From positions 1 through 44,001 of the forward strand of contig JASBSS010000037.1 of assembly GCA_030148805.1 (NCBI GenBank): DNA of 44,001 nucleotides, read 5' to 3'. The notes below the pieces were generated by a model that saw nothing but the letters and a program-made list of their open reading frames with translations, was not told the origin of the DNA and ran no database searches. Position numbers and translations under genes: made by a program. Every line of letters starts with the position of its first letter. Positions within the stretch are counted from its first letter, which is position 1. Source of the DNA: Thiogranum sp. GTDB taxonomy: Bacteria > Pseudomonadota > Gammaproteobacteria > DSM-19610. Positions 2,862-43,330 of the stretch are shown one piece after another.

Positions 2862-4160
2862 GTGGGCCGTAAACGCAAAGGACGCGTGCTGGACGTGTAT
2901 ATCGGCTCAAGCAAAGTCGGCCAGTATTCCCGTGATCCAAGCGGATCAACAGCATTTCGCTATGATCCAGAATGGTTGTCGTCTGAACGGGCATTTCCCA
3001 TTTCTCTATCCATGCCATTGTCAGATCGTGTCTGGTCAGGGGAGAGTGCGACCAGTTACTTCGATGGGCTGCTGCCCGATGATCGCACCGTGAGGGAAAA
3101 AATCGCTGCCCGTGAGCATGCCGAAAGCGCCGGGGTCTTTGATCTCCTGGCCGTCATCGGACGGGATTGTGTGGGGGCACTGCGTTTCGTTCCCGAAGGC
3201 CTTGACCCTGGCGATCCGACAAAAATGGAATACCGGCCGGTCAGTGACGACGAAATCGCAACCCGGATTAATTCCCTGGCCATCAACCCCCTCGGCATCC
3301 ATGCTGATGACGATGACTTTCGTATCTCTATTGCAGGGGTTCAGGAAAAGACGGCTTTTCTTCGGGTGGATAATCAATGGCAGCTTCCGTTCGGGCCAAC
3401 ACCGACCTCCCATATTTTCAAGCCGGCAATGAAGGAAGGTCTGAATGGTGCAGACTTTTCTGATACGCCGTGGAATGAATGGCTCTGCCTGACGTTGTGT
3501 CGTACCCTGGGTCTGGAGACGGCCAATGCCGAAGTGCTGTTGTTTGGCGACAAGCCCGTTATAGTCGTGGAGCGTTTCGATCGCGTCTGGCAGGAAGGCG
3601 TGCTATACCGCCTGCCGCAGGAGGATATCTGTCAAGCACTGGGTGTTCCACCTATGCGGAAATATGAAAGTGATGGCGGCCCCGGCATTATAGATGTGCT
3701 GGAATTCCTGAACGGCGCTGTCGCTCCGCATGAAGACCGCTTGACCTTTATGAAGGCACAAATCGTATTCTGGTTATTGGCCGCCATCGACGGCCATGCC
3801 AAAAATTTTTCGGTATTCCTCACTCCAGGCGGTTACAGGCTGACGCCGCTCTATGACGTGATGTCCGCGTCACCCTACCCGGAATTCCCAGTTCAGAAAA
3901 TCAAGCTGGCGATGGCCATAGGTGACAAGCGCTATTATCGCTTACACCAAATCCAGCTCCGGCATTTTTATCAGACCGGCCAGAAAGCCGGGCTGCAAAA
4001 GCAGGAAATGGATGGCCTCTTCTCAAGCCTGATTGCGCAGATGGATAAGGCGATAGGGGACGCGACTGCTTTGGCGGCTGCGGCGGGTATGCCGGAATCC
4101 ACGTATGAGCCAATCTTTGCTGGTGTGATTAAGCGGGCGGGCATGATACAACATGTATGA
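2862..4160 (+). CDS. hipA: HipA-type serine/threonine kinase toxin
   Basis: A 432-residue HipA, close to the 440 residues of the E. coli protein. HipA kinases arrest growth by phosphorylating a translation factor (GltX in E. coli). Visible features are the couple_hipA N-terminal domain (SMPLS, YFDGLLPD), the phosphoserine/P-loop motif AGVQEKTAF near residue 159, a lysine in HIFKPAM, VVERFDR, the catalytic loop AAIDGHAKNFS (Asp near 310) and LYDVMS (Asp near 331). All key residues are present, so the enzyme looks active. It starts with GTG 2 bases after hipB. The window contains a second, divergent HipA at 16443-17699. Confidence 0.9.
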   Translation: MGRKRKGRVLDVYIGSSKVGQYSRDPSGSTAFRYDPEWLSSERAFPISLSMPLSDRVWSGESATSYFDGLLPDDRTVREKIAAREHAESAGVFDLLAVIGRDCVGALRFVPEGLDPGDPTKMEYRPVSDDEIATRINSLAINPLGIHADDDDFRISIAGVQEKTAFLRVDNQWQLPFGPTPTSHIFKPAMKEGLNGADFSDTPWNEWLCLTLCRTLGLETANAEVLLFGDKPVIVVERFDRVWQEGVLYRLPQEDICQALGVPPMRKYESDGGPGIIDVLEFLNGAVAPHEDRLTFMKAQIVFWLLAAIDGHAKNFSVFLTPGGYRLTPLYDVMSASPYPEFPVQKIKLAMAIGDKRYYRLHQIQLRHFYQTGQKAGLQKQEMDGLFSSLIAQMDKAIGDATALAAAAGMPESTYEPIFAGVIKRAGMIQHV

Positions 4161-26623: not shown

Positions 26624-28270
<1,647 letters not shown>

Positions 28271-28311
28271 TTAATTCAATCTATTTGCTTACGAGTCAGT
28301 TGGCGCTCGGT

Positions 28312-28755
28312 TCAGTCGTGTTGCGTTCGCTCCTGCGGCACTTCGCAGCCCGCGGGACCGCAGCGCCGGTGGGCGGGGGAGACCAGGTCCCACACGGCGA
28401 CGATCAGCATCAGTTCGAGACCGGCATACAGCGTCCAGATGCTCCAGCCGTACTGGAACCACGGATAAAGGCTGAGCAGTACGATGGCGGGGCCAAGCAT
28501 GCCGGCCACCGAGCGGTACCACTGGCGGTGGCTGAGCCAGCCCAGCGCATTGGCGCCCAGCGCGATCCAGGCAAACAGCGGCAGCAGGGTGTTGAGGAAC
28601 AGGCCCTCCCATTGCGACAAGAAGCCCAGGCTAATCGCCGCCCCGATGCTGGCCAGAGCCGGAAAGCACATGGCGCAGCCCATGGTGGAGACGATGGCGC
28701 CGCGCGCGCCGGATTTGTCGCCGATGCGGGCCAGCCAGGGGATGAGCCGGTCCAT
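28312..28755 (-). CDS. merC: MerC mercury uptake membrane protein
   Basis: A 147-residue inner-membrane protein with four hydrophobic helices. The Hg(II)-binding motif STMGCAMCFPALASIGAAIS (C27, C30) is in the first helix as in known MerC. Two further cysteines lie near the C-terminus (RRCGPAGCEV). It carries Hg(II) into the cytoplasm for MerA. ATG 28755 follows TAGGAGG; it lies 10 bases after merP. Confidence 0.92.
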   Translation of the reverse strand: MDRLIPWLARIGDKSGARGAIVSTMGCAMCFPALASIGAAISLGFLSQWEGLFLNTLLPLFAWIALGANALGWLSHRQWYRSVAGMLGPAIVLLSLYPWFQYGWSIWTLYAGLELMLIVAVWDLVSPAHRRCGPAGCEVPQERTQHD

Positions 28756-28765
28756 GATATGCCTC

Positions 28766-29086
28766 CTACTTTTTAATGTGCGACGGATAACCCGCGTCGA
28801 AGGTGGCATTGGTGAGCGTGTCGATATCGGTCTTGGCCGGATCGAAGGTCACCTTCGCCCAACCTACGCCGTCACCTTCGTACTTGGCTTCGGCCTTGAC
28901 CACGCTCGGCACCTTCTCCAGGGCCTTGCGCACGGTGATGGGGCACATGTTGCAGGTCATGTTTTCCACGTCGAGGATCACGGTCTTCGTCTGCGCCTGT
29001 GCGGCGGCCGCAGCTGCGGGGGTGGATAGCGCCAGGGAAAAACCGGACAGGCCGAGAAACATGGCGACTAAGAAGGTTCGAAACAT
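28766..29086 (-). CDS. merP: MerP periplasmic mercury-binding protein
   Basis: A 106-residue exported HMA-domain protein. The signal peptide is followed by an Ala-rich stretch (TPAAAAAAQAQ), then the metal site ENMTCNMCPITV (C45, C48). The ending FDAGYPSHIKK is typical. It scavenges Hg(II) in the periplasm and hands it to MerT. AGGAGG precedes the ATG. Confidence 0.93.
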   Translation of the reverse strand: MFRTFLVAMFLGLSGFSLALSTPAAAAAAQAQTKTVILDVENMTCNMCPITVRKALEKVPSVVKAEAKYEGDGVGWAKVTFDPAKTDIDTLTNATFDAGYPSHIKK

Positions 29087-29121
29087 GGATGCGCCTCCTA
29101 ATATATAAAGTGGATAATCAA

Positions 29122-29478
29122 TCAGCCCAACAGGGCCGGGCCGTACCAGGGGAAGGCGACGAGCGCGGCTAGGATCACCGCCACCACCCAGAACAGGATG
29201 CGCTGATTGCGGCGCGTGACCGGATTGGCGCAGGGTTTGCCCACCTCGCAGGCCTCGGGCACCAGATAGAGCTTGCGAAACGCCAGCCCCAGAAACACCA
29301 GGGTCACGCCGATGAAAATCGGCCGGTACGGCTCCAGCGCACTGAGGTTGCCGATCCAGGCGCCGCCGATACCGAGCGTCAGCAGGACGATAGGGCCGAC
29401 ACAACATAGCGACGCCCCGATGGCCGCCAGTGCCGCCAGGAGCAGGGAGCGGTTTCTGCTCACGGTGTGATCCGCCAT
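29122..29478 (-). CDS. merT: MerT mercuric transport protein
   Basis: A 118-residue inner-membrane protein with three helices. The first helix carries the Cys pair AAIGASLCCVGPIVLLTLG (C25, C26), and the cytoplasmic loop has the second pair region (EACEVGKPCANP). It is the first gene after the mer promoter at 29513-29544 and opens the minus-strand operon merT-merP-merC-merA. Confidence 0.93.
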   Translation of the reverse strand: MADHTVSRNRSLLLAALAAIGASLCCVGPIVLLTLGIGGAWIGNLSALEPYRPIFIGVTLVFLGLAFRKLYLVPEACEVGKPCANPVTRRNQRILFWVVAVILAALVAFPWYGPALLG

Positions 29479-29512
29479 GGGTTTTCTCCCTAAAAATCCA
29501 ACCTTGGCTTAA

Positions 29513-29544
29513 AGCATAAACGCCGTACTTAGGTACAGAGTCAA
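29513..29544 (-). promoter_or_regulatory. mer promoter/operator (MerR-type, 19-bp spacer)
   Basis: On the minus strand: TTGACT (29544-29539), 19 bp, TTATGC (29519-29514). The spacer contains GTAC-N4-GTAC (29525-29536), the half-sites of classic mer operators such as Tn501. The long spacer is the signature of activation by DNA untwisting through MerR. Its -35 is 50 bp from the -35 of promoter A, which points the other way. Confidence 0.85.
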
Positions 29545-29593: not shown

Positions 29594-29624
29594 TTGACCT
29601 GGGGCCAACTCCAGGTAGTAACCT
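29594..29624 (+). promoter_or_regulatory. MerR-family-type promoter A (19-bp spacer)
   Basis: TTGACC (29594-29599), 19 bp, TAACCT (29619-29624). The spacer dyad is ACCTGG-N8-CCAGGT (29597-29602, 29611-29616). Same design as promoters at 32197, 33438 and 37874. It drives the MerT-like, HMA and barrel genes. Confidence 0.8.
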
Positions 29625-29660
29625 ATTTCAGCAATACAGAAATTTATTGAGTGCCGTGGA

Positions 29661-29680
29661 ACCTGAAGTCAACTCCAGGT
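29661..29680. promoter_or_regulatory. Extra operator-like dyad downstream of promoter A
   Basis: A 20-bp near-perfect dyad, ACCTGAAGTC/AACTCCAGGT, related to the promoter A operator but without TTG before it or a -10 after it on either strand. Its centre is 64 bp from that of operator A. It may be an auxiliary binding site for the same regulator. Confidence 0.55.
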
Positions 29681-29710
29681 TGTCACAGTTATTACCGGAT
29701 GGCTTGGTAG

Positions 29711-30094
29711 GTGGCTGTTTATACATGGACCTGGCTGACGCTATTCGCTTCGACCGGTACGCTGAGTTGCTGTGCCTTGCCGATCCTGCTCGTGACGCTG
29801 GGGCTGGGAGCCACCGTGGCGGCGCTGAGCAGTGCCTTCCCCTTCTTGCTCGTATTAAGCGAGCACAAGATTTTGGTGTTCACGTTCTCTGGTTTCCTGC
29901 TTGGCCTGGCTGGGCGGATGCTTTTTTGGACCGCCAAAGAGTGCCCGGCCGATCCGAGGCTGGGGGCACTATGCGCCAGGACCCAGGTCTGGAATCGGCG
30001 TATCTACTGGTGATCCGTCGTCTTGTGGTGTGTGGGGTTTTTTGCCGCCTACCTGGCATTGCCATTGCGAATCTGGCTTGAGTCCGGGACTTGA
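29711..30094 (+). pseudogene. MerT-like membrane protein interrupted by an in-frame TGA
   Basis: The first 100 residues from GTG 29711 resemble MerT: a first helix with a Cys pair (STGTLSCCALPILLVTLGLG), a second helix (LVFTFSGFLLGLAGRMLFW) and a loop with CPADPRLGALC. The frame stops at TGA 30011-30013 right after RRIYW. It then continues in the same frame for 26 more codons encoding a third helix (SVVLWCVGFFAAYLALPLRI, then WLESGT) before TGA 30092. One base change (TGG to TGA) explains this. The truncated protein would lack the last helix. It is the first gene after promoter A. Confidence 0.7.
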
Positions 30095-30120
30095 GTCATT
30101 GCCAATAGGAGGTGTTTTTC

Positions 30121-30441
30121 ATGAACCGGTTTATCGTACTTTTTATCGTCCTGTTGATGACGCATTCGCCGGGCTTGGCTGATCCAGCGCAGGTCCAGGC
30201 GCAGGTCGTTGAGATCGAGGTGACAGGGATGACCTGTCCATTCTGTGTCTACGGGACCGAGAAGAAACTGAACAAACTACCTGGCGTGGATGCTGCCGAG
30301 GTGAGTCTAAAGAACAAGAAGGCACGCATTCTGATGAAGCCTGGAGAGAAGGCCGATATCGAGGTCATTCGAAAGGCGATCGTCGACGCCGGCTTTACGC
30401 CCGGGGAGGCCACCGTCGACACATCTAAGGCAGCACAGTGA
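30121..30441 (+). CDS. Exported HMA-domain metal-binding protein (MerP-like)
   Basis: A 106-residue periplasmic protein: signal peptide (IVLFIVLLMTHSPGLA) then one HMA fold with GMTCPFCVYGTEKKL (C39, C42) and the ending DAGFTPGEA. It is closely related to the protein at 37947, not to the true MerP at 28766. AGGAGG precedes ATG 30121. Its stop overlaps the next GTG by 4 bases. Predicted role: binding a soft metal ion in the periplasm for the adjacent membrane proteins. Confidence 0.85.
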   Translation: MNRFIVLFIVLLMTHSPGLADPAQVQAQVVEIEVTGMTCPFCVYGTEKKLNKLPGVDAAEVSLKNKKARILMKPGEKADIEVIRKAIVDAGFTPGEATVDTSKAAQ

Positions 30442-31157
30442 ACGCAAAGCAATCTTTCATAGCGGGACTGGTGATGGCAGCGTTATTAAGCGATGCGAGT
30501 GCGATGGGCATCCGGTCTTTCGTCGCTCTGCCACTGGAAGAGGGTGGCACGGTATTGCGCTTATTCGGTGAACGCAATCCGGATCAGGAAAGGACTGTCC
30601 TAACCGCCAACCTGGCCTATGGGGTGAACGCCAGGCAGACGTTGTTTTTCGGCGTGCCATATCGCCTGTCCTACGGGGCGGGTGATCGTTTGGGCGATAT
30701 CAGTGGTCTGTATCGGTATACCACATGGCAGGTCGACAACCTTGAGGGAACCAGCCGGCTCGGTTTGTTGGGTGGCGTGGTTGTTCCGACCGATAGCAAT
30801 CGGGATCCAGGTGTACAGGCCGGTGCTGTCGCAACCTTTTTCCGGCACCGCTATGAGTGGGATCTGGATGTACTCTGGATCGAAGGGCTGGGCGACAGGA
30901 AAGACCGCGCGCGTTATGACATCGCCTGGCAGTACCGCCTCATCCCGGCGGAGTATCCAGATTGGGGTATCGGCAGTGAGTGGGATCTCGATCTTGAGTT
31001 GGGCGGACGCTGGGAACGCGGTTCCGACACGGTGCATCAGGCTACCATCGGGCTCCAATCGATCCATAAACGCTGGGTACTGGAGGGCGCGGTGGTTAGA
31101 GACCTGGACGGCCCCAACGACACGCAGTTCATATTGAGTACCCGGTTTCATTTCTAA
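30438..31157 (+). CDS. Outer-membrane beta-barrel protein, metal-cluster associated
   Basis: A 239-residue exported protein with signal peptide (SFIAGLVMAALLSDASA). The body consists of alternating amphipathic strands (VLTANLAYGVNARQTLFFGV, RLGLLGGVVVPTD, IGSEWDLDLELGGRWERG) and ends in a C-terminal strand with final Phe (FILSTRFHF), the barrel-assembly signal. It is a predicted outer-membrane channel or sensor, made by translational coupling with the HMA protein (GTGA overlap). The substrate is unknown; soft-metal passage is inferred from context. Confidence 0.7.
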   Translation: MNAKQSFIAGLVMAALLSDASAMGIRSFVALPLEEGGTVLRLFGERNPDQERTVLTANLAYGVNARQTLFFGVPYRLSYGAGDRLGDISGLYRYTTWQVDNLEGTSRLGLLGGVVVPTDSNRDPGVQAGAVATFFRHRYEWDLDVLWIEGLGDRKDRARYDIAWQYRLIPAEYPDWGIGSEWDLDLELGGRWERGSDTVHQATIGLQSIHKRWVLEGAVVRDLDGPNDTQFILSTRFHF

Positions 31158-31168
31158 CTGAGCAGTCG

Positions 31169-31220
31169 ATGACACATATACAGGTAGAAGTGTTTTCCTC
31201 TCGATGCCACTATGCTGGCA
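31169..31220 (+). pseudogene. 5' remnant of a thioredoxin-like gene
   Basis: An ATG 12 bases after the barrel gene starts MTHIQVEVFSS, matching the start of the CGKC thioredoxin at 38295 (MRIKVEVFSS). The similarity fades after about 17 codons where the TetR remnant begins. This suggests cluster A once continued with the thioredoxin gene as in cluster D. Confidence 0.45.
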
Positions 31221-31355
31221 AGATTACTGATCGCGACATACGACGGTCTTGTCTTGCAGTGGCTTGCAGACAAGAAGGCCATTGATTGGCAATCGAGTGT
31301 CAAAACATTAACCACCGTCATGCTTCAGGGCTTGCAGAAGCCGTCGGAGAAGTAA
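31212..31355 (+). pseudogene. C-terminal remnant of a TetR-family regulator
   Basis: About 47 codons: ARLLIATYDGLVLQWLADKK, then AIDWQSSVKTLTTVMLQGLQ and KPSEK before TAA. This reads as the last helices of a TetR-type ligand-binding domain. There is no HTH. It ends 29 bases before the methyltransferase, so both may have arrived together on one recombined segment. Confidence 0.5.
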
Positions 31356-31384
31356 CGCGCTGACTAAGTGAAAAGGAGGTCGAC

Positions 31385-32050
31385 ATGAGAGAGGCCCTGG
31401 ACAAGTTGAGGCTGAAATCGGTCTATGACAACGTTGCAGAGCGATATGATTTTCAGCATGCCTTCTTTACCGCAAGATCCGATCAGCGAGGACGCAAGTT
31501 ATTGGTTGACAAGGCCGTCTCCTCAGGAAATACGGTCCTTGATTGTGGTGCTGGGACAGGTACCACGGGATTACTGGCTGCGGAGAAGGTCGGTGACACC
31601 GGCAAAGTGACGTTGGTAGATATGAGTGAAGGTATGCTTTCGGTTGCAAGAAAAAAAGCGGAAGCAGATAAAAATTTGGACCGGGTGGAAATCAAAGTCG
31701 GTGATATGCTTGACTTGCCATTTGAGGACAATAGCTTTGATGTTGTACTTTCAACCTACAGTATGTGTCCTGTTTATGATCCTGCCAAAGCGGCAACCGA
31801 AATATATCGGGTCGCCAGGCCGGGTGGGCTTATCGGGATTGCTCATTCTAGTGAGCCAGAGACACCGCTGGTTAAATGGCTGGCCGATCAAATAGAGAAC
31901 ATTGTTTGGCATCTTCCATCTATATCGCTTGGGTGCAGAGCTGTCTCTGTCTTGCCTGCACTCGAACAACTTGGCTGTAAAACGATTTTTAAAAAGCACA
32001 TCGGTGTGCCACTCTGGCCTTTTCTTGTTTGTGTAGTAGTAAAACGATGA
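31385..32050 (+). CDS. Class I SAM-dependent methyltransferase, UbiE/Methyltransf_11-like
   Basis: A 221-residue cytoplasmic enzyme. Motif I for SAM binding is VLDCGAGTGTTGLLAAEK. It is followed by acidic VTLVDMSEGML, VGDMLDLPFEDNSFDVVLST (motif IV region) and YRVARPGGLIGIAHSS. The N-terminus (VYDNVAERYDF) is UbiE-like. The substrate is unknown. The strong AAAGGAGG site and lower GC differ from the neighbours. It sits between a TetR remnant and a dead mer promoter, so it is probably an insert rather than an original member of the metal cluster. Confidence 0.75.
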   Translation: MREALDKLRLKSVYDNVAERYDFQHAFFTARSDQRGRKLLVDKAVSSGNTVLDCGAGTGTTGLLAAEKVGDTGKVTLVDMSEGMLSVARKKAEADKNLDRVEIKVGDMLDLPFEDNSFDVVLSTYSMCPVYDPAKAATEIYRVARPGGLIGIAHSSEPETPLVKWLADQIENIVWHLPSISLGCRAVSVLPALEQLGCKTIFKKHIGVPLWPFLVCVVVKR

Positions 32051-32158
32051 GGCACGCAAAGCCCTGAGATCAGTTTCGCATCGTTCGCCATGGGGTTTCT
32101 CCTCAAATATCCAACTATGGCCTAAAGCCTAAACGCCGTACTTAAGTACGGAAGGGTC
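32050..32158 (-). pseudogene. merT: Remnant of a second mer promoter and merT start
   Basis: On the minus strand, a 16-bp palindrome with GTAC-N4-GTAC (CCGTACTTAAGTACGG, 32137-32152) and flanking sequence closely match the region before merT at 29478-29544. The start codon matches too (ATG 32091, MANDAKLISGL). The -35 (ACCCTT) and -10 (TTAGGC) positions have decayed, and merT homology ends after a few codons where the methyltransferase begins. Confidence 0.65.
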
Positions 32159-32196
32159 TTGAGGACAATTCCGGGCGAACGGGCCACAATCAACAC

Positions 32197-32227
32197 TTGA
32201 CCTGGAGTTCGCTCCAGGCAGTAGGCT
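32197..32227 (+). promoter_or_regulatory. MerR-family-type promoter B (19-bp spacer)
   Basis: TTGACC (32197-32202), 19 bp, TAGGCT (32222-32227). The spacer has a perfect dyad CCTGGAG-TTCG-CTCCAGG (32201-32218). It precedes the MBL-fold gene at 32447. Confidence 0.8.
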
Positions 32228-32257
32228 TCGTTCAAGTCACCTTTTTCCGGCATGCGG

Positions 32258-32279
32258 AATCTGGAAGCGGCTCCAGATT
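32258..32279. promoter_or_regulatory. Extra operator-like dyad downstream of promoter B
   Basis: A perfect dyad AATCTGGA-N6-TCCAGATT, sharing the CTGGA/TCCAG core with operator B and centred 59 bp downstream of it. No promoter elements surround it. The arrangement parallels the second dyad at 29661. Confidence 0.55.
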
Positions 32280-32446
32280 GCCAATTGGTGAGCATATGTT
32301 TGGAGGTGAATTATGAGGAAATGCACACGCGTCGCGAAAGCGGCCAAGTGGTCGCACTGCATCTGGATGTGACTTTGAACGCGGGGAAGGCGTCGCGTGT
32401 GTCATAAGGTTCTTGAAAACATGCTGCACACGACAATGGGGGGATC

Positions 32447-33382
32447 ATGAGGCAATTTGTATTGGCTTTCGCTGGATTGATGTGCCTTTGGTTTGGGCCA
32501 GCATCAGGGCAGGCCCAGGAAATCGAGGTCCAGAAAGTGACCGACAACGTATACGCCCTGGTGGGAAAACGAGGTCCCATGTCCAAGAACGATCTGGGTA
32601 CCAACGCCACATTCGGGGTCGTGGTTACATCGGCAGGTGTAGTCTTGATCGATCCAGGCGCGAGCTATAAGGCGGCGCAATGCATTGACGACGCCATTCG
32701 GTCCATCACCGATCGACCGGTCGTACTGGTGATCGACACAGGTGCCGAAGACCAGCGCTGGCTAGGTAACGGTTATTTCCAGGCGAAGGGTGCGCGCATC
32801 CTGGCCGCCCATGCCGCTGTTGAAGCCCAACGCGCCCGTGCCAGCGAACTTCTGACCCTATTGGAAATGCTGCTTGGGAAAGAGGGGGCGGCAGGCACTC
32901 GCGAGGTTTATGCCAGCGAGGTCTTCGAGGTACAGAAAAACTTATCCATCGGCGGTGTCGGGTTCCAGCTACGCCGCGTCGGACCCGCGTATACACCGGG
33001 CGATACTTATGTATGGCTGCCGAAACAACGGGTGGTCTTCACCGGCGACATTGTTTCCACGGAGCGCTTGTTAGCCGTCGGCTCGACCTCGAACACCGCC
33101 ACTTGGCTTGCGGCATTCGATGCCATTGCCGCCCTCAATCCCGCTCAGGTCGTTCCCGGCCACGGCCATGCCGGCACGCTGGCTCAAGCCCGCAAGGATA
33201 CCCGCGATTATTTAGTGACTCTGCGCGACGGCGTGAAGGCACTGCTGGATACCGGTGGGGACCTTTCGGAAGTAGGCAAGGTAGACCAGTCGCCGTTCGA
33301 GGCACTTACGGGTTACGAGATGTTAAAAGGCCCCAATGCCCATCGCGTTTATTTGGAACTGGAGTCGCAGGAATTGCAATAG
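32447..33382 (+). CDS. Exported MBL-fold protein lacking most canonical zinc ligands
   Basis: A 311-residue exported protein (signal peptide ending near SGQAQE) with the metallo-beta-lactamase fold: TNATFGVVVTSAGVVLIDPG, TGDIVSTERLL, VVPGHGHAG. The canonical THxHxDH motif is replaced by IDTGAEDQRWLGN, so its three His and Asp are gone. The His normally in GPAHTPGD is Tyr (GPAYTPGD). Only the last His (PGHGH) remains. Some relatives I recall carry a similar TGGQDHRWLGN motif, so this may be a subfamily trait taken further here. Catalysis as a zinc hydrolase is doubtful. It is alone behind promoter B. Confidence 0.8.
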   Translation: MRQFVLAFAGLMCLWFGPASGQAQEIEVQKVTDNVYALVGKRGPMSKNDLGTNATFGVVVTSAGVVLIDPGASYKAAQCIDDAIRSITDRPVVLVIDTGAEDQRWLGNGYFQAKGARILAAHAAVEAQRARASELLTLLEMLLGKEGAAGTREVYASEVFEVQKNLSIGGVGFQLRRVGPAYTPGDTYVWLPKQRVVFTGDIVSTERLLAVGSTSNTATWLAAFDAIAALNPAQVVPGHGHAGTLAQARKDTRDYLVTLRDGVKALLDTGGDLSEVGKVDQSPFEALTGYEMLKGPNAHRVYLELESQELQ

Positions 33383-33437
33383 GGAGTGATGCGACATATC
33401 CGCCTACCGCTGCCAGCTGCTGCGGGTCAATTCACCC

Positions 33438-33468
33438 TTGACCTCGAGCTGACTCCAGGACTTAAGCT
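33438..33468 (+). promoter_or_regulatory. MerR-family-type promoter C (19-bp spacer)
   Basis: TTGACC (33438-33443), 19 bp, TAAGCT (33463-33468). The spacer dyad is less perfect (CTCGAG then ACTCCAGG) but keeps the right half-site. It precedes the RND gene at 33547. Confidence 0.75.
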
Positions 33469-33546
33469 TGTGTTCGTTCGCGTAGCGCGTCGCGTGTAGA
33501 TGTGCGCAAACGATGCATACACAGACAAGAAGAGACGGCGTAACTC

Positions 33547-35850
33547 ATGTTGCATTTTATGTTGCGACTCGCCCGGCGGGCGGCCGCGTTTCCAAAACTG
33601 ACGATTGTGGTCGTGCTGTTGCTCACGGCAGGCTTTGCCTCGCGATTGCCGACCCTGCACGTGGACGACGAAGTGCTCAATATGATGCCGACCGATCATC
33701 CGGCGCGCGTGCTGCAAGAGCGGATCGAGCAACAGTTCGGGGTGCGGGATCTGGTGATCCTGGCCGTGGAAAACGCGCATGGCGTTTTCAACCCCGAATC
33801 GTTGGCCCGGCTCAAGGCGTTGAGTGATTTCCTCGCGGCGCAGCCGGGCATCGTATCGGAGGACGTGGCCAGCCTGGCGGCCACGGACAATGTAGTGGCG
33901 CACGGCGATGAGCTGCTCATGCGCCCGCCCTTACGGGCGATTCCGCACGATGCCGCTGGCGCCAGGCTGATCCGTGACGGGGTGCAGGACAACGCGTTAT
34001 TCACCGGCCGCCTGATTTCGCGCGATGGCACCGTGGCAGCTATCTATGCACCCATCGCCGACGGCACAACCCGCGAGGCGGTCTACGCCGCGGTGATGAA
34101 ACATCTCTCGGGGCTCGCCCCACCGGACAACGGCGATCGCATCCTGGTCTCGGGCAAGGTGATGATCGAGGGCGCGCTCGGTACCGCCATGCGCAGTGAC
34201 CTGCGTCACCTTGGACCCATTGTCGTGCTGGTGCTCCTGGCCTTGCTCACGCTGACGTTCCGGAACCCCGGGCTGGCGTTGCTGCCGGTATTGACGGCGG
34301 TGATCAGCGTGGTGTGGACCATGGGGCTGCTCGCGGCGCTAGGAGTATCGGTCTATCTCCCGACCACGTTGATCCCAGTGATGCTATTGGTCATCGGCAT
34401 TTCGGACGAAGTGCACCTGTTGGGCGTCTACCGGCGTCAAGGATTGGAGCGGCCGCGCCATGTCGCGCTGCTCGCGGCCGTCAAGCATACCGCCCGCCCG
34501 ATTACACTAACCTCTGTCACGACGGCTGCCGGTTTCCTGGCTGTGGCGGCAAGCCCCATCGTGCCACTAAAACACTTCGGCCTGTTCACGGCCTTCGGTA
34601 TCGGTGTGGCCTATCTGCTGACGTTCACTCTGACACCGGCCTATCTCGCACTCATGAGCCGCCCACAACGCTGGAAACACTCGACGCAGATCCGTTTTGA
34701 GAAGGGCCTGGCGGCGTTTGGCCGCCGTCTGGCCCGACGCCCCATCCTGGTTGGGCTAGCGTTGATGTTAATCGGCGGCCTGGCCGCCTGGGGCGCTTCC
34801 GGTACGCGGGTGGACGAGAATTGGGTCAACCGCTTCAAGCCGGGGAACCTGGTGTACGAGTCGGATGCGCTCCTCAACCAGGCGTTGGGCGGTACCACCA
34901 TGCTCTACGGACGGATCACGACCGATGACGGCGGGCTACAAGATCCGCAAGTCCTGGCGCGCATCGAGGCCATGCAGAACGCCCTGGCGGCGCTGCCTCA
35001 CGTCGGCAAGATAACCTCCGTCGTGGACCTGCTCGAGCAAAGCAACCGGGTGCTGCATGGAGGCGATCCCGCTGAGGAACGGCTACCGCCTTCCACCCAG
35101 GCGGTCGCTCAGCAACTGCTGTTGCTGGAGTCGAGTGGCGATCCCAACGATCTCGATTTATGGATCGATGGCCGGCGCGAGCGTAGCTTGCTTTGGATCC
35201 AGCTCAAAGACCCCTACGCCTCCACCGCCCGGGCGCTGCTACCGGCGATGGAACACCTGGCCAGCGAGCACCTCGGCAACATGGCCAAGGCCACTTTCGG
35301 CGGCCCAGCCCACGTGAACGTGGCCATGGCAGACCTGGTGGTGACGAGCCAATTGCGTAGCCTTGTCTTGTCACTGGTCGCGGTGTTTCTGGTGCTGGTG
35401 GCGCTGTATCGTTCCGTGGCCTGGGCTGGGCTGGCACTCGCGCCACTCGCCGTGGTGCTGGCCGGTGTCTTCGCGTTCCTGGCGTTCACGGGCCGTTATA
35501 TCGACATCCCGCTGGCGGTGCTGGCGTCCATCGCCATTGGCCTCGCGGTCGATTACGCCATTTACGGTCTCGATCGCTACCGGGTCGCCCGCACAGCGGG
35601 TGAAGCCCAGCACGCCGCCGTGGGCCAGGCCTTGGCGCAGAGCGGTTCCATCGTCGTGACTAACAGCCTGGTTCTCGCGTGCGGATTCAGTGTGCTGGCC
35701 TTTTCCCACTTCGCGCCGCTTACGGCCATCGGATTGCTGACGGCTGGCGTGCTGGTGGCAAGTGCGTTGATTTCCCTGCTGCTCCCGGCCATGGCGGCAC
35801 GGTTGCGCTTGCCGAGCGCGATACCGACAACAAAGGAGAGCGCCTCATGA
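33547..35850 (+). CDS. MMPL-type RND transporter
   Basis: A 767-residue inner-membrane RND protein of the MMPL/HpnN-like branch, with two repeats each of one helix, a periplasmic domain and a five-helix block. Signatures are PVMLLVIGISDEVHLLGVYR in the first half and ASIAIGLAVDYAIYGLDRYR in the second, with the proton-relay Asp in each. This branch moves lipids or hydrophobic compounds rather than ions in characterised cases; its presence under a metal-type promoter is notable. It overlaps the next gene (ATGA). The ribosome site is weak. Confidence 0.85.
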   Translation: MLHFMLRLARRAAAFPKLTIVVVLLLTAGFASRLPTLHVDDEVLNMMPTDHPARVLQERIEQQFGVRDLVILAVENAHGVFNPESLARLKALSDFLAAQPGIVSEDVASLAATDNVVAHGDELLMRPPLRAIPHDAAGARLIRDGVQDNALFTGRLISRDGTVAAIYAPIADGTTREAVYAAVMKHLSGLAPPDNGDRILVSGKVMIEGALGTAMRSDLRHLGPIVVLVLLALLTLTFRNPGLALLPVLTAVISVVWTMGLLAALGVSVYLPTTLIPVMLLVIGISDEVHLLGVYRRQGLERPRHVALLAAVKHTARPITLTSVTTAAGFLAVAASPIVPLKHFGLFTAFGIGVAYLLTFTLTPAYLALMSRPQRWKHSTQIRFEKGLAAFGRRLARRPILVGLALMLIGGLAAWGASGTRVDENWVNRFKPGNLVYESDALLNQALGGTTMLYGRITTDDGGLQDPQVLARIEAMQNALAALPHVGKITSVVDLLEQSNRVLHGGDPAEERLPPSTQAVAQQLLLLESSGDPNDLDLWIDGRRERSLLWIQLKDPYASTARALLPAMEHLASEHLGNMAKATFGGPAHVNVAMADLVVTSQLRSLVLSLVAVFLVLVALYRSVAWAGLALAPLAVVLAGVFAFLAFTGRYIDIPLAVLASIAIGLAVDYAIYGLDRYRVARTAGEAQHAAVGQALAQSGSIVVTNSLVLACGFSVLAFSHFAPLTAIGLLTAGVLVASALISLLLPAMAARLRLPSAIPTTKESAS

Positions 35851-36620
35851 TCCGGCGCTGCCTATTCCTGGTTATGGGTGTGTTTATCGCCTTCGCGGCC
35901 CCTGCCCAAAGCGGCCCCGATGCCGAGGCGATTATGCAGGCGGTGAAGTGGCGCGACATCGGCCGTGACGAGCGCGCCGATGTCGTGATGCTGCTGAAAG
36001 ACGCAGGCGTGAAGCGCCGCGAACGCCGGCTCATCCGCCTGCGCCGCACCGAGGGCCGCGAACAGCAGATCCGCATTCAGTTCCAGTTTCCGCCGGACGT
36101 GCGTGATACAGCCTTCCTGTTGCACGATCACGCCGACCGCGAGGATGACCGCTGGCTGTACTTGCCCACGCTGCGCAAGGTCAAGCGCATCGCCGGGGCG
36201 CAGAAGTACCGCAACTTCCTCGGCACCGATTTCACCTACGGTGAGCTTGGCGGCCGGGAGCCCGGGGAGGACACCCACACCTTGGAAGGTGAAGAGATGT
36301 TGGACGGTAAGGCGGTATACAAGATCCGCAGCGTACCCCGGGAGTCCGCCAATCCCTATCAATATCGAATCTCGTGGGTATGGGAGAAAACACCCGTCGT
36401 GCTGCAGGAAGAGTACTACGATCGTCATGGCCGCCTGCGCAAGCGCATGCGGGTGCTGGACCTGCGGCCGGTGCAGGGGATCGAGACGGTGCTCAAGCGC
36501 GAAATGGTCGATCTGCAGGAGAAGCACCGCACGGAACTGATTTTCTCCGGACTGCATTACGACCTGGGTCTCAGCGCCAGCCTTTTCGAGCCGCGCAGCC
36601 TGGATCGGCCTGTCGAGTGA
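35847..36620 (+). CDS. LolA-like outer-membrane lipoprotein-sorting family protein
   Basis: A 257-residue periplasmic protein with signal peptide (CLFLVMGVFIAFAAPAQS) and a LolA-like half barrel: DVVMLLKDAG, QFQFPPDVRDTAFLLHDHAD, DRWLYLPTLRKVKRIAG, NFLGTDFTYGELGGR, YQYRISWVW. Proteins of this type often accompany MMPL transporters and may carry lipid or hydrophobic cargo across the periplasm. It overlaps both neighbours by 4 bases, so all three are made together. Confidence 0.8.
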   Translation: MIRRCLFLVMGVFIAFAAPAQSGPDAEAIMQAVKWRDIGRDERADVVMLLKDAGVKRRERRLIRLRRTEGREQQIRIQFQFPPDVRDTAFLLHDHADREDDRWLYLPTLRKVKRIAGAQKYRNFLGTDFTYGELGGREPGEDTHTLEGEEMLDGKAVYKIRSVPRESANPYQYRISWVWEKTPVVLQEEYYDRHGRLRKRMRVLDLRPVQGIETVLKREMVDLQEKHRTELIFSGLHYDLGLSASLFEPRSLDRPVE

Positions 36621-37834
36621 ACTGGAAGCTGGCGATATTTCTGCTAGGCGTGCTGCCTTGTCGGGTACCGGCGTATGCCGTCGAGTCGCCACGCGGTTAC
36701 CTCACGCTGGCCAACGAGACTGCCGTGGAATCAGGCGGTGAAGTGGCGAAGTTCCGCAATCTGGTCGAACCGGAACTGGATTGGGACCTCACACCGAACC
36801 TGCGCCTGAACGGTGCCGCGCGCCTGCTGTGGGACCCGGCCTTCGACGGCTGGGAACACGAGGTATCACTGCGTGAGCTGAGTCTCGACTGGCGCGTCGA
36901 GGAAGCCGACGTTCGACTGGGTTTGCAGCAGGTGGTATGGGGGCAGGCATCCGGGTTCCTGTCCGGATTTGACGTGTTTCACCCGCGCGACCTGCGCGAG
37001 TTCGTGCTGCCGCCGTTCGACTTCCTGCGTCGTCCGCTGTGGCTCGTGCAGGTGCAGCAGCCCTTGAGCGACTGGACCCTGGGGGCGCTGTGGTCGCCGC
37101 AGGAGCGGGTGGATAAAGTTGCCGGCCCGGGCGAACCGTTCTATACACCGAGATACCAGCCGCCTGGATACGCGCTCATCGACGGTAGCCGTGATATTGA
37201 ACACCAGCGGTTTGGAGTTCGACTTTCCACTCATCGCGGGTCGTGGGATGTGGCCTTCATCTACCTGTACGCGCCGCGTAGTGATGCTGTATTTCAGCGC
37301 GAACTCGTTACGACCGGTGTGCTACGCGAGGTGGAGCGCCACTCGGCCTTTCACACGGCCGGCTTGGCATTTGCCCGGGCGGCGGGGGCTGCGGTCTGGC
37401 GGGGCGAACTGAGTGCCTACGCGGGTCGGGAATACCAGACGACCGAGGCGTTGGGCGGGGTGCGGAGAACCAACCAGGTCAATGCGGTGCTGGGTCTTGA
37501 TCTGACGCTGCTGACGGATCTGGATCTGACGCTGGAAGTGGGTCACCGGCGTATCGCGGATCACCATGCAAGCTTCGTTGAGCCTCAGGATCGGACCACG
37601 CTGGTCGTGCAAGTGCGGAAACCGTTCTTGCACGAAACGCTGATCCCCAGCTTGGCGGTGATCCACAATTTCCGAGGTGGCGATGCCTTGTGGCGCCCGA
37701 CGATTCAGTGGCGAGTGACAGATCGCTTCGACATCGCCGCCGGCTTCGACCTGTTCAGTGGGCCGGCGAACTCGCCATTTGGCGGGTTTCAGGATCGCGA
37801 TCGGGCTTACGTGACCCTGACCTATCGACGCTAG
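36617..37834 (+). CDS. Outer-membrane beta-barrel protein, DUF1302-like
   Basis: A 405-residue exported protein, GTG start overlapping the previous stop, with signal peptide ending near AYAVES. Barrel strands follow (LRLNGAARLLWDPAFDG, DVRLGLQQVVWGQASGF, FGVRLSTHRGSWDVAFIYLY, PTIQWRVTDRFDIAAGFDLF). The motifs VVWGQASGF and DVFHPRDLREF are typical of DUF1302-like outer-membrane proteins that pair with MMPL and LolA-like genes. Predicted to be the outer-membrane end of the system C pathway. Confidence 0.72.
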   Translation: MNWKLAIFLLGVLPCRVPAYAVESPRGYLTLANETAVESGGEVAKFRNLVEPELDWDLTPNLRLNGAARLLWDPAFDGWEHEVSLRELSLDWRVEEADVRLGLQQVVWGQASGFLSGFDVFHPRDLREFVLPPFDFLRRPLWLVQVQQPLSDWTLGALWSPQERVDKVAGPGEPFYTPRYQPPGYALIDGSRDIEHQRFGVRLSTHRGSWDVAFIYLYAPRSDAVFQRELVTTGVLREVERHSAFHTAGLAFARAAGAAVWRGELSAYAGREYQTTEALGGVRRTNQVNAVLGLDLTLLTDLDLTLEVGHRRIADHHASFVEPQDRTTLVVQVRKPFLHETLIPSLAVIHNFRGGDALWRPTIQWRVTDRFDIAAGFDLFSGPANSPFGGFQDRDRAYVTLTYRR

Positions 37835-37873
37835 GTGACTGAATTCTAGTGATTTTAAGGCCGTAGAAATTAC

Positions 37874-37904
37874 TTGACCTGGAGTTGACTCCAGATTGTA
37901 ATCT
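37874..37904 (+). promoter_or_regulatory. MerR-family-type promoter D (19-bp spacer)
   Basis: TTGACC (37874-37879), 19 bp, TAATCT (37899-37904), with spacer dyad CCTGGAGT-TG-ACTCCAGA. It has the best -10 of the four and precedes the operon that ends with the MerR-family gene, so the regulator would control its own expression. Confidence 0.82.
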
Positions 37905-37946
37905 TTAAGCAATATTGGAATTTGGCGACTGTTGGGAGAGATACAC

Positions 37947-38246
37947 ATGAAGCGTTACTTGCTGCTGGCTTGGCTTTTGATAATCCCTCTGTCCGTTCCC
38001 GCTGCACAGGGGCAGGTCGTGGAGATCGGGGTGGTCGGCATGAGCTGTGAGTTCTGTGCCTATGGTGTTGAGAAAAAACTGAAAGGTGTCCCCGGTGTTG
38101 AGCAGGCCAAAGTCAGTTTGGATGATGGTAAGGCGTGGATTGTCATGGCACCGGGCCAGGTTGCAGATTTAGCCACGCTTCGTAAGGCGATTGAAGCCGC
38201 GGGTTTCACGCCGGGCGAAGTACACGGCGAGTCGCAGGTGAAATAG
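37947..38246 (+). CDS. Exported HMA-domain metal-binding protein, paralogue of 30121
   Basis: A 99-residue periplasmic protein: signal peptide (LLLAWLLIIPLSVPAAQG) and one HMA domain with VGMSCEFCAYGVEKKL (C34, C37) ending AAGFTPGEV. It shares VVEI, CxFCxYGxEKKL, PGV and AGFTPGE with the protein at 30121, so one arose by duplication. First gene after promoter D. Confidence 0.85.
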   Translation: MKRYLLLAWLLIIPLSVPAAQGQVVEIGVVGMSCEFCAYGVEKKLKGVPGVEQAKVSLDDGKAWIVMAPGQVADLATLRKAIEAAGFTPGEVHGESQVK

Positions 38247-38294
38247 CCGCGCTGACGCCGCTGGTTTGTGATGATTGATAGAGAGGTCAAACCC

Positions 38295-38579
38295 ATGCGT
38301 ATCAAGGTCGAAGTCTTTTCCTCCCCCGGCTGTGGCAAGTGTGGCCACGCCAAGGAGGTATTACGCAAGCTTGCCGAAGAGATCGGTGGTGATCGAGTCA
38401 AGTGGCGTGAGGTGAATGTACTCGAAGAGATGGACTATGCTGTAAGCCTCGGTGTGATGTCCACGCCCGCCATCGCCATCGAAGGCGAACTGGCATTCAC
38501 TGGGCTGCCATCGGCGCGTAAGCTGCGCGCGCACCTGGAGACGCGCCTAGGGTCCGGCCAACGGGAAGTGCAGGCATGA
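38295..38579 (+). CDS. Small thioredoxin-fold protein with CGKC site
   Basis: A 94-residue cytoplasmic thioredoxin/glutaredoxin-like protein: VEVFSSPGCGKCGHAKEVL (C13, C16), GVMSTPAIAIEGELAFTG with the cis-proline. It is followed with a 4-base overlap by a CcdA/DsbD-like membrane protein, so it may feed electrons to that protein. The ATG at 38295 follows GAGAGG; a GTG at 38268 is possible but adds an unlikely tail. Confidence 0.8.
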   Translation: MRIKVEVFSSPGCGKCGHAKEVLRKLAEEIGGDRVKWREVNVLEEMDYAVSLGVMSTPAIAIEGELAFTGLPSARKLRAHLETRLGSGQREVQA

Positions 38580-39880
38580 GCGCACTTCTTCTGACCACCT
38601 CGTCCGTGCTTGGAGGGCTGTCGTTTTTCGAGCCATGCACCATCGCCACACACACCCTGTTTTCTGCGCGCGTCCATCGACAGCCGCGAGCCAGTTGTTG
38701 TCAGGGTTTGTTGTCAATGTGGTTGGCACGCAGCCTCTTGTCGGTCGTTTTGTTGACGGTGGCGGTCGCGTTCACATCACCACCGGCCTGGGGGGCATGG
38801 CTACCCAGCGTCATCCTGGCGGTGATGGGTACCGTTTACATCGTCTCCCGCTTCACCTACATCCCAGTGCCGCACCTGGAATTTTTCAAGCTCCTGCCGG
38901 GCGGGCGCTCACTGCCGTTCGCAATACAATTGGGATTGACCCTCCCGGCCTGTACGATCCCATTATTCGTGGTCGTCACTGGTCAGGCGATAACTGTGGA
39001 TTCGGTTGGTTTCGCGGCGTTGGCGGGCTTACTATTCGGTACGCTGTTTACCGCACCGCTGGTGCTCACGGCGTTCAAAGGGGTGCACGCGGATGGCCGC
39101 GAGTTGCTCAACCGTGCGGCCAAGGGCAGTCCGTATCTCACCGCGGCACTGCTGTTCGGTGCCGCGCTCTATCTAATGGTCCCCTCGCTGGATGTCAGTG
39201 CCGACACACTCAAGGCGACTCTGCAGCAGGCCAGCTGGGCAGGGGTCGGCCTGGGCTTTCTGGCAGGATTCGTGTTCAGCTTCAACCCCGTCTCTTTTGC
39301 CTCTATCCCAGTGGTGCTCGCCTATGTCACCAAAGCCCACGAGGAGCGTCGTGCGATCAGGATGGGTGGGGCCTTCGTCGCCGGCCTGATTGTGACTCAC
39401 GTTGCGCTCGGTGTCGCGGCGGCCCTGGGGGGTGAGTGGGTGAAAGGCGTCATGGGGCGTCAGTGGGGGCTTCTCCTCGGTCCCGTGCTGATCGTTTTGG
39501 GACTGATGTGGCCCGGCTGGCTCAAGTTGCGTCTGCCCTGGATCTCCGTGAGGGCGAAGAAGGTCACGGGCGTGTGGGGCGCCTTTCTGCTCGGTATCCC
39601 GTTCTCGGTGGCGGTGTGTCCCTTCTGCACGCCGGCATTGCTCGTGACCTTGACGGCCAGTGCCGCCATCGGCTCAGTGACGTTCGGTTTCGCGCTGCTG
39701 TTGGCCTTCGCTTTGGGGCGCAGTATCCCTATTATATTGGGGGCCTGGAGCATGGGTTTTCTAGAGTCGCTGCGAATGCTCTCGCGCCACCAGAAAGCCG
39801 TCGAGATAATCGCTGGCGTCACATTGATCCTGACGGGGTTGTATCTGCTCAATGAGTATTTCTTCATCATCAAGTATTGA
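38576..39880 (+). CDS. CcdA/DsbD-like membrane protein with two homologous halves
   Basis: A 434-residue inner-membrane protein with about twelve hydrophobic segments. It looks like two CcdA-type units in tandem. The first has the Cys pair in FFEPCTIATH and LPACTIPL. The second keeps AVCPFCTPALL but has FNPVSFASIP where the first Cys is expected. CcdA/DsbD proteins carry electrons across the membrane from thioredoxin to periplasmic thiols; the CGKC protein just upstream is the likely donor and the Cys-based HMA proteins are likely acceptors, both inferred. Confidence 0.72.
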   Translation: MSALLLTTSSVLGGLSFFEPCTIATHTLFSARVHRQPRASCCQGLLSMWLARSLLSVVLLTVAVAFTSPPAWGAWLPSVILAVMGTVYIVSRFTYIPVPHLEFFKLLPGGRSLPFAIQLGLTLPACTIPLFVVVTGQAITVDSVGFAALAGLLFGTLFTAPLVLTAFKGVHADGRELLNRAAKGSPYLTAALLFGAALYLMVPSLDVSADTLKATLQQASWAGVGLGFLAGFVFSFNPVSFASIPVVLAYVTKAHEERRAIRMGGAFVAGLIVTHVALGVAAALGGEWVKGVMGRQWGLLLGPVLIVLGLMWPGWLKLRLPWISVRAKKVTGVWGAFLLGIPFSVAVCPFCTPALLVTLTASAAIGSVTFGFALLLAFALGRSIPIILGAWSMGFLESLRMLSRHQKAVEIIAGVTLILTGLYLLNEYFFIIKY

Positions 39881-40343
39881 CCCGAGTCCACGAAAGCGGC
39901 GAAAGCCGCTGGGCCGTGAAGGATCCCGGTACAGTATCGGTGACATGACCCGGTTGACCGGACTGTCCGCCGACACGCTGCGATACTACGAGAAGATAAA
40001 GTTGCTGCGCCCCATTGGTCGCTCCGCGTCCGGTGTTCGCGTTTATGATGATGGTGACCTGTCGCGGTTGCGGTTCATACAACGCGCAAAGGCGATGAAT
40101 TTCTCTCTGGAAGAGATCGCGCGCCTTGTGGAAATGCGGGAGGACCCACAGCATGCGCGCGATGAGGTGCGTGAGTTGACGTACCGAAAACTGAAGGACA
40201 TAGAAAACCATATGAAAGAGCTCGGCACGCTGCGAAAGGAATTGATATTGCTCGTTAACCTTTGCCGCGGCGCGGAGGCAGGATGCCCGATCATTGAGGG
40301 TCTGGATAACAAGCCCAAGCTCAAGAAGACCAAACGACGGTAA
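39852..40343 (+). CDS. MerR-family metal-responsive regulator, presumed master of promoters A-D
   Basis: A 163-residue MerR-family protein with a polar N-terminal extension, the HTH (YSIGDMTRLTGLSADTLRYY), the wing (GVRVYDDGDLSRLRFIQRAK) and a long dimerisation helix. The metal-binding loop has C138 and C145 (VNLCRGAEAGCPIIEG), like the C-terminal Cys pair of MerR and CueR relatives. The Cys of MerR near position 82 is replaced by the His region DPQHARDEV. So it should sense a thiophilic metal but not with the MerR three-Cys site. It overlaps the CcdA-like gene by 29 bases. Confidence 0.85.
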   Translation: MSISSSSSIDPSPRKRRKPLGREGSRYSIGDMTRLTGLSADTLRYYEKIKLLRPIGRSASGVRVYDDGDLSRLRFIQRAKAMNFSLEEIARLVEMREDPQHARDEVRELTYRKLKDIENHMKELGTLRKELILLVNLCRGAEAGCPIIEGLDNKPKLKKTKRR

Positions 40344-42481: not shown

Positions 42482-42886
42482 ATGTCGCAAAGTATTGAAA
42501 ATAAGGTTATTTCACGGATATATGGCCGTGGTAGGGGTTGGGCCTTTACCAAGACCGACTTTGTGGCTGAATTTGGTGAGGTCAATATCCACCGGGCACT
42601 CTCCAGCCTGACCAAGGCTGGCAAGATTCGCCGTGTCTGTCGAGGGGTCTACGACTATCCTCGCTATAGTGAGCTACTGGATCGTCAGCTGAGCCCGGAT
42701 CTCGACCAGGTGGCTCATGCTTTGGCTCGCAAATTCAATTGGCGCATTCAACCTTCCGGCGATGCGGCTCTCAACCTGCTGGGCCTCTCCACCCAAGTTT
42801 CAGGGCGTTGGATTTACCTCTCCGAGGTCCAGGCCGTGAGTACGAAATCGGGAAACATTCCCTTATTTTTCAGACAGGGGTTGATA
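42482..42886 (+). pseudogene. Truncated DUF6088/AbiEi-antitoxin-like gene
   Basis: About 120 residues of a type IV antitoxin-like winged-helix protein: KVISRIYGRGRGWAFTKTDF, HRALSSLTKAGKIRRVCRGV, LARKFNWRIQPSGDAALNLL, GRWIYLSE. After about 42830 the family pattern continues in the next frame (GREYEIGKHSLIFQ), so there is a frameshift. Near 42880 it is cut off by the DUF411 gene. By accident the original frame runs on through DUF411, giving a 282-codon fused frame. A dyad TTTCAG-N18-CTGAAA (42435-42464) precedes the gene. Confidence 0.6.
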
Positions 42887-43330
42887 ATGAGAAAGCTTGT
42901 GCTGATATTCTGGACGTTTGCGTTGCTGCCGTTTTCCAGCTCACAGGCAGAGCTGGCAAAGGATATTGTCGTCTATAAAAGCCCGCACTGTAGCTGTTGT
43001 TCCAAGTGGGTGCGCTACCTGGAAAGCGAAGGCTATCAGGTTGAAGCAATAGATACCCGGGATGTCTTTGCCTGGAAAAAGAAGTATGCGGTGCCGGAAA
43101 AACTTGCAGCCTGCCATACTGCGGTGATCGATGGCTATGTCGTTGAGGGGCACGCAACTGATCGCGATATCAAGCGCCTGTTACTGACCCGCCCGGAGAT
43201 AAAGGGTATCGCCATACCCGGTATGCCCATAGGCACGCCCGGCATGGAAAGCGGCAACAGAAAGGAGCGCTATGATGTCATGAGCTTCGATGAAGAAGGG
43301 AACACCGAGGTCTTCGTGCGACACCGGTAG
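42887..43330 (+). CDS. DUF411 exported metal-associated protein
   Basis: A 147-residue protein from ATG 42887 (AGGGG upstream) with a signal peptide (VLIFWTFALLPFSSSQA) and the DUF411 domain: VVYKSPHCSCCSKWVRYLES (C35, C37, C38), VPEKLAACHTAVIDGYVVEG, GIAIPGMPIGTPGME. DUF411 proteins are found in copper and other metal resistance loci and have a thioredoxin-like Cys motif. The frame is open into the antitoxin-like remnant upstream, but the signal peptide shows the real start. Confidence 0.85.
   Translation: MRKLVLIFWTFALLPFSSSQAELAKDIVVYKSPHCSCCSKWVRYLESEGYQVEAIDTRDVFAWKKKYAVPEKLAACHTAVIDGYVVEGHATDRDIKRLLLTRPEIKGIAIPGMPIGTPGMESGNRKERYDVMSFDEEGNTEVFVRHR

Follow-up and report, generated by a model that had tools for sequence, protein, structure and literature searches.

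Which genes does the MerR-family regulator encoded at 39852..40343 (+) control, and to which metal do they respond? The question is raised by a stretch of 44,001 nucleotides from Thiogranum sp. (GenBank assembly GCA_030148805.1, contig JASBSS010000037.1, positions 1 to 44,001), referred to here at its full length as the window, in which four promoters of one kind precede genes for metal-handling, membrane and thioredoxin-type proteins. The analysis points, with a probability of about two in three, to a soft-metal response regulon under a distinct clade of MerR regulators, which would act as an accessory to the mercury resistance genes (mer) through reduction of periplasmic thiols.

Operator and MerR clade across genomes

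The four promoters lie on the plus strand at 29594..29624, 32197..32227, 33438..33468 and 37874..37904, where a preliminary description of this DNA had placed them, and each combines TTGACC-19 bp-TAnnCT with a spacer that holds a CTGGAG/CTCCAG dyad. Promoter 1 reads TTGACC-19-TAACCT, and the four show 1, 0, 1 and 1 mismatches to the consensus TTGACCTGGAGNNNNCTCCAGGNNNTANNNT, respectively. The bare promoter pattern also matches at 3741 in the window, without such a dyad, and reaches a mean of 0.01 in 100 dinucleotide shuffles of the window. Across the whole genome, counting both strands, CCTGGAGTnnnCTCCAG with at most one mismatch yields 11 matches, all in the window, on contig C21, or at one place on contig C33; additional scattered matches appear at two mismatches. 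On C33 (locus L001) this promoter stands ahead of a paralogous operon, ordered as barrel, HMA (heavy-metal-associated), MerT-like, thioredoxin, CcdA-like and MerR genes, with TolC-, membrane-fusion- and RND-type genes downstream. The paralogous CcdA-like gene, at 5667-6950 of L001, is split over frames.

For comparison, the best 80 of 139 loci from named genomes, many of them on short contigs, were combined with the C33 locus and the window into a set of 82; counts out of 81 leave out the window. The loci come mostly from gammaproteobacterial metagenome-assembled genomes (Thiohalobacter, Thiogranum, Sedimenticola, Acidiferrobacterales), with a few other labels. The operator promoter is present in 66 of the 82 loci, with 83 sites at no more than three mismatches, compared with none at up to four mismatches in three shuffles. 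Most sites stand shortly upstream of the same gene families in similar order, typically barrel, HMA, MerT-like, sometimes a second barrel, thioredoxin, CcdA-like, sometimes a metallo-beta-lactamase (MBL)-fold gene, and MerR.

Of 369 genomes of the class, 25 contain a match to the CcdA-like protein and are termed cassette genomes; 16 of these carry the strict operator pattern. The operator pattern occurs in 33 of the 369 and the reversed motif in 0. A MerR at least 47% identical to the window protein is found in 31 of the 33 operator genomes, the misses being G009 and G291, compared with 0 of 47 sampled operator-less genomes holding one at 45% identity or more, three of these having matches at 38-40%. 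The 47 were sampled at regular handle-number steps and by chance include no cassette genome. The comparison shows that the clade of the 39852 regulator co-occurs with the operator ACCTGGAG-4-CTCCAGGT in a 19-bp promoter spacer, the outcome anticipated by the co-occurrence check in the preliminary description. Together with the operator standing before the same families in 66 loci, it upholds the earlier proposal of one MerR regulon. Judged from these sequences, the regulon is real and conserved, with a predicted metal response, and is present in many environmental bacteria.

The phylogenetic tree places 22 cassette MerRs (20 random and two of the window genome, out of 54 eligible) and nine MerRs near operators elsewhere on one branch with support 100/96; outside it fall E. 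coli CueR and ZntR, three plasmid heavy metal-responsive transcriptional regulators (HMRTRs) and all 22 mer-type entries. The recognition helix of the clade carries Asp, Thr and Lys, the same residues as ZntR, and Asp and Lys at these places correlate with such operator sites in gammaproteobacterial HMRTRs (PMC5045206). The operator core CTGGAG/CTCCAG is likewise shared with the ZntR-zntA system of E. coli. The ZntR promoter has a spacer stated as 20 bp (PMC1526738), whereas all four window sites have 19 bp; the window regulator further differs in its two-cysteine sensor, its target genes and its score of 101.5 against the ZntR cut-off of 167.95 (TIGR02043).

CueR is the best relative of the regulator in the PDB, and the likeness to CueR and HmrR extends to the Cys-x-Cys sensor loop, the 19-bp spacer and an Arg where CueR has Lys81, seen in 57 of 57 clade members. 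Both sensor cysteines (CueR Cys112 and Cys120) are kept in all 57 as Cys138 and Cys145, forming a Cys-x6-Cys loop. The place of CueR Ser77 is taken by Arg or Lys in 53 of the 57 and by Cys in four, so nearly all members lack a third cysteine there. CupR-type regulators are relatives as well, alongside the copper regulators CueR and HmrR. In contrast to CueR, the clade does not use the operator ACCTTCC (PMC1526738), and the score of 111.8 stays below the CueR cut-off of 147.4 (TIGR02044); the mer-operon MerR profile (TIGR02051) gives 84.3 against 150.85. The regulator appears to read DNA like ZntR and to sense most like CueR, belonging to neither by cut-off, and its two thiolates suggest a fit to a linearly bound soft ion. 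The regulon sets apart a MerR clade that has an operator of its own; no description of this clade or of the regulon was found in the literature searched, a search outside which most subscription journals lie.

Core genes, mercury linkage and the metal sensed

The same comparison shows a regulon core of a MerP-like HMA protein, a MerT-like protein, a CGKC thioredoxin, a 434-residue double CcdA-like protein, one or two barrels and MerR. In the window, where open frames and Pfam profiles locate the genes named in the preliminary description, the plus strand carries the MerT-like membrane protein at 29711..30013, a periplasmic-type HMA protein (MerP-like) at 30112..30441, a barrel-like protein without a Pfam match at 30438..31157, a second HMA protein at 37947..38246, a small thioredoxin (Thioredoxin_3, CGKC) at 38295..38579, and the CcdA-like membrane protein (DsbD_TM/DsbD_2) at 38576..39880, ahead of the regulator.

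The MerT-like protein has no Pfam match at E 0.001, with MerT reaching E 0.026 and 15 bits against a gathering score of 32.9. Profile comparison by hhalign relates its family to MerT at 94.7% and E 6e-8 (25 versus 13 sequences), with the CC pair kept and a CP...C loop besides it, so that on profile evidence the family is a remote MerT relative; the HMA family matches MerP at 97.4%. The MerT-like frame contains an in-frame TGA at 30011-30013, before the last transmembrane stretch, and remains open beyond it; the gene may therefore be broken in the window. A selenocysteine at this TGA was considered and set aside; locus L051 has Ala at that place.

The CcdA-like protein scores 51.1 bits with DsbD_TM, against a gathering score of 27.1, over residues 224-426, its second half. 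At 434 residues it is about double a single CcdA (224 in the 5vkv chain), and Cys21, Cys126, Cys348 and Cys351 are invariant in 18 of 18 sequences. One stretch of its AlphaFold model matches the nuclear magnetic resonance structure of CcdA, 5vkv, at Foldseek rank 37 (E 0.26, probability 0.99, TMt 0.57). Identification as an ArsG permease was rejected, the NCBIfam profile NF040495 giving 64.3 bits against a cut-off of 200.

The linkage of these genes to mercury resistance is pronounced. MerA over the cut-off occurs in 20 of 25 cassette genomes compared with 53 of 344 others (odds ratio 22, p 2e-11), whereas the arsenic control ACR3 occurs in 9 of 25 and 122 of 344 (odds ratio 1.0). When genomes are sorted by operator, MerA is found in 25 of 33 against 48 of 336 (odds ratio 18.8), and ACR3 in 16 of 33 against 115 of 336 (odds ratio 1.8, p 0.13). 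Comparison thereby shows that the regulon tends to travel with mercuric reductase. At the level of loci, mer protein matches appear in 20 of 81, three of them weak at 33-39% identity, and mer genes are divergent upstream in 12 of 81. The window has the latter arrangement, with a mer operon (merT, merP, merC, merA) at 26624..29478 on the minus strand, adjoining and under its own promoter. A stretch comprising the merT start and the mer promoter is duplicated at 29473-29539 and 32086-32152 (85%), ahead of units 1 and 2, which suggests a duplication of the mer-cassette junction.

The regulon resembles a mer operon in its MerT-like and MerP-like proteins and its genomic linkage, and differs in its operator and regulator, in a core without its own MerA, and in the added thioredoxin and CcdA-like protein. 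The window promoters were rejected as mer promoters, since their dyad differs from the mer operator TCCGTAC-4-GTACGGA (PMC1526738). The earlier statement that this is not a mer operon accordingly stands as to the dyad but needs qualification as to the module, which is strongly linked to mer. Plasmid gene sets of Cupriavidus, Paraburkholderia and Nitrobacter are similar in that a MerR-type regulator, a thioredoxin and a CcdA adjoin, with a mer operon following in Cupriavidus and a MerT-family gene in Nitrobacter. They differ in a short CcdA and, on the Cupriavidus and Paraburkholderia plasmids, in a P-type ATPase in place of the HMA/MerT-like/barrel core; the regulon operator with up to six mismatches was not found in four records of these plasmid relatives. 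The ScsABCD copper-tolerance system also ties electron supply for periplasmic thiols to metal stress.

In the proposed mechanism, a soft d10 metal ion would be bound by the regulator via Cys138 and Cys145, and the metal-bound regulator would untwist the overlong spacer, switching the operons on. Metal taken up in the periplasm by the HMA protein would be moved over the inner membrane by the MerT-like protein, toward MerA or efflux. Thioredoxin and the CcdA-like protein would pass electrons outward, so that the periplasmic carrier keeps its CxxC thiols in reduced form, and it is this reduction that would make the module an accessory to mer.

Several observations weigh against this picture. Metal import and the electron relay are assigned from family membership alone, and the AlphaFold model of the CcdA-like protein is modest (pLDDT 73.5, pTM 0.54). 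Its top structure matches are MFS-type transporters (best Z 8.5), read as reflecting common helical packing, and a second structure search with the model does not show CcdA in its 50 listed rows. The strict operator pattern is absent from 9 of the 25 cassette genomes, MerA over the cut-off is absent from 5 of the cassette and 8 of the 33 operator genomes, and the co-occurrence counts treat genomes as independent, with kinship ignored. Near the cassette, HME-RND genes occur in 19 of 81 loci compared with merA in 15.

Further points of this kind concern the metal, and would fit a copper, silver or gold regulon in which the sensor is of the monovalent CueR type, the HMA protein carries Cu(I), and MerA lies near by way of shared islands. 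They comprise the CueR match in the PDB, the two-cysteine sensor with Arg or Lys rather than a third cysteine, and operators that precede or adjoin P-type ATPases or copper-type genes in L171, L177, L186, L172 and L179 (identities partly by eye). In addition, the plasmid relatives of the thioredoxin-CcdA-MerR set in alpha- and betaproteobacteria adjoin P-type ATPases, one beside copN and copK. Such a regulon is nevertheless judged unlikely: the MerA odds ratio far exceeds that of the arsenic island control, multicopper oxidase matches are found in 3 of 81 loci against the 20 with mer matches, and the cassette transport genes resemble merT and merP. The soft-metal regulon accessory to mer is preferred, and a response to thiophilic metals is plausible.

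Genes outside the core

The preliminary description had counted an MMPL/LolA/barrel export line, the barrel being a DUF1302 protein, as part of the regulon, a view that the comparison does not sustain, as these genes occur in just 1 of the 81 other loci, L051, and were rejected as core. In the window they form an add-on on the plus strand, with an MMPL (HAE3-type) transporter at 33547..35850, a LolA_like protein at 35850..36620 and a DUF1302 barrel-type protein at 36617..37834, its start picked by eye inside a longer frame. Their relatives in L051 are 82, 78 and 77% identical, respectively, and the nearest site upstream of that MMPL gene has three mismatches. A P-type ATPase fragment at 1912-2793 of L051, on a contig labelled Phycisphaerales, separates the operator from the MMPL gene. 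MMPL is matched at E 1e-100 in 8 of the 369 genomes, seven of these matches being 32-33% identical.

The MBL-fold protein at 32447..33382 (+; Lactamase_B) is related to SoxH-like hydrolases of quinoprotein relays. The usual MBL-fold motif is HxHxDH; this protein apparently lacks it, and seven relatives have nTGsEDlRWLGN at its place. An NHL-repeat protein stands downstream of its own operator promoter in L086 (4871-5845) and L123 (4155-5129) and is likely a further regulon member. A UbiE-like methyltransferase at 31385..32050 (+) is of uncertain membership. At 42482-43330 of the window, a single open frame fuses a DUF6088 (AbiEi-like) start with a DUF411 domain.

A second element downstream of the promoters

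Two further dyads, absent from the earlier site list that gave the four promoters correctly, belong to a second, ECF (extracytoplasmic function)-like element. The first, GGAACC...GTCACA at 29658..29688 (+), lies 64 bp downstream of promoter 1 and may be an ECF-like promoter or an auxiliary operator with a dyad; the other, GGAATC...GCC at 32256..32286 (+), lies 59 bp downstream of promoter 2 and is degenerate. A second dyad occurs within 200 bp downstream of 27 of the 83 primary sites, whereas of 1660 random places 39 have one. Tandem TTG promoters account for three of the 27, and 22 of the other 24, chosen on the dyad alone, contain GAAC-N19-GTC, the misses being 32256 of the window and L091. 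A spacing scan below 104 primary sites, which may include near-duplicates between collections, gives 27 matches at N19 and 0-2 at each other length from 12 to 26; the upstream control gives 1 and the tenfold random control 6. Among 29 elements picked by overall similarity (another set of 34 was picked for GAAC and GTC), 27 retain GAAC and 28 retain GTC, compared with 14 that have an unbroken dyad core (Fisher p 0.006 by cells), indicating that the flanks outlast the dyad; the A of GTCnnA is kept in 21. With at most two mismatches, the element is found at 20 places in 15 of 42 operator or cassette genomes, and nowhere in reverse. In L120, L219 and L220 the order of element and TTG site is inverted, with a poor -10 at the TTG site.

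GGAAC and GTCnnA correspond to the -35 and -10 elements of the sigma-E type, reported for E. coli promoters as GGAACTT and TCAAA (PMC2893595). The N19 spacing is 2 bp longer than the sigma-E arrangement GAAC-N17-xTC, which E. coli degP and rpoH show as GAAC-N17-xTCTGA and an rpoH-like gene of the window genome (named by eye) shows as GGAACTT with N17. In the stretch scanned ahead of rseD for E. coli rpoE, no GAAC-N17 match was found, a result that has no bearing as a control. A search for a sigma-factor gene in the window was negative, since C21 carries none of the genome's 18 Sigma70_r2 matches, one of which is RpoE-like by eye. In genome G000, two Sigma70_r2 genes are neighbours of an ACR3 gene and a second MerA (C25, 62118-69684).

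A tentative reading, held at somewhat less than even odds, is that the MerR metal regulator works an ECF promoter of the sigma-E type, [G/T]GAACC-TGGAGnnnnCTCCAGGTT-GTCnnA, with its operator in a 2-bp-longer spacer. MerR-type sigma-70 promoters have spacers of 19-20 bp instead of 17 (PMC9909328), and the parallel excess over N17 suggests an ECF promoter that the regulator would untwist. About equally possible is an auxiliary operator, where a second dimer some six helical turns downstream would tighten repression by bridging or as a roadblock. Its half-sites are the same as those of the primary operator, and the offsets are near whole helical turns, with a cluster between 59 and 67 bp, a few cases at 73-76 and a single one at 104; an operator alone accords less well with GAAC and GTC being asymmetric and better kept than the dyad, with the exact N19 between them, and with L125, L218 and L221, where the element stands 63-114 bp ahead of an operon-gene match without a primary promoter nearby. 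That the element instead acts as a leader RNA hairpin is improbable: the arms could pair in RNA, and six cells are changed on both sides with pairing kept, but one-sided changes break 33 cells and the flanks outlast the arms, so this candidate was disfavoured.

No report of a MerR regulator on an ECF promoter, or of paired MerR operators, was found in a search outside which most subscription journals lie. Should the second element prove to be an ECF promoter, DNA distortion would serve for activation beyond sigma-70, and through tandem sigma-70 and ECF promoters one metal sensor would gate transcription of a single operon in both its housekeeping and its envelope-stress form. For the regulon itself, the findings suggest a coupling of MerT/MerP-like metal handling with a thiol-electron relay that, in many uncultured gammaproteobacteria, is linked to mercuric reductase.

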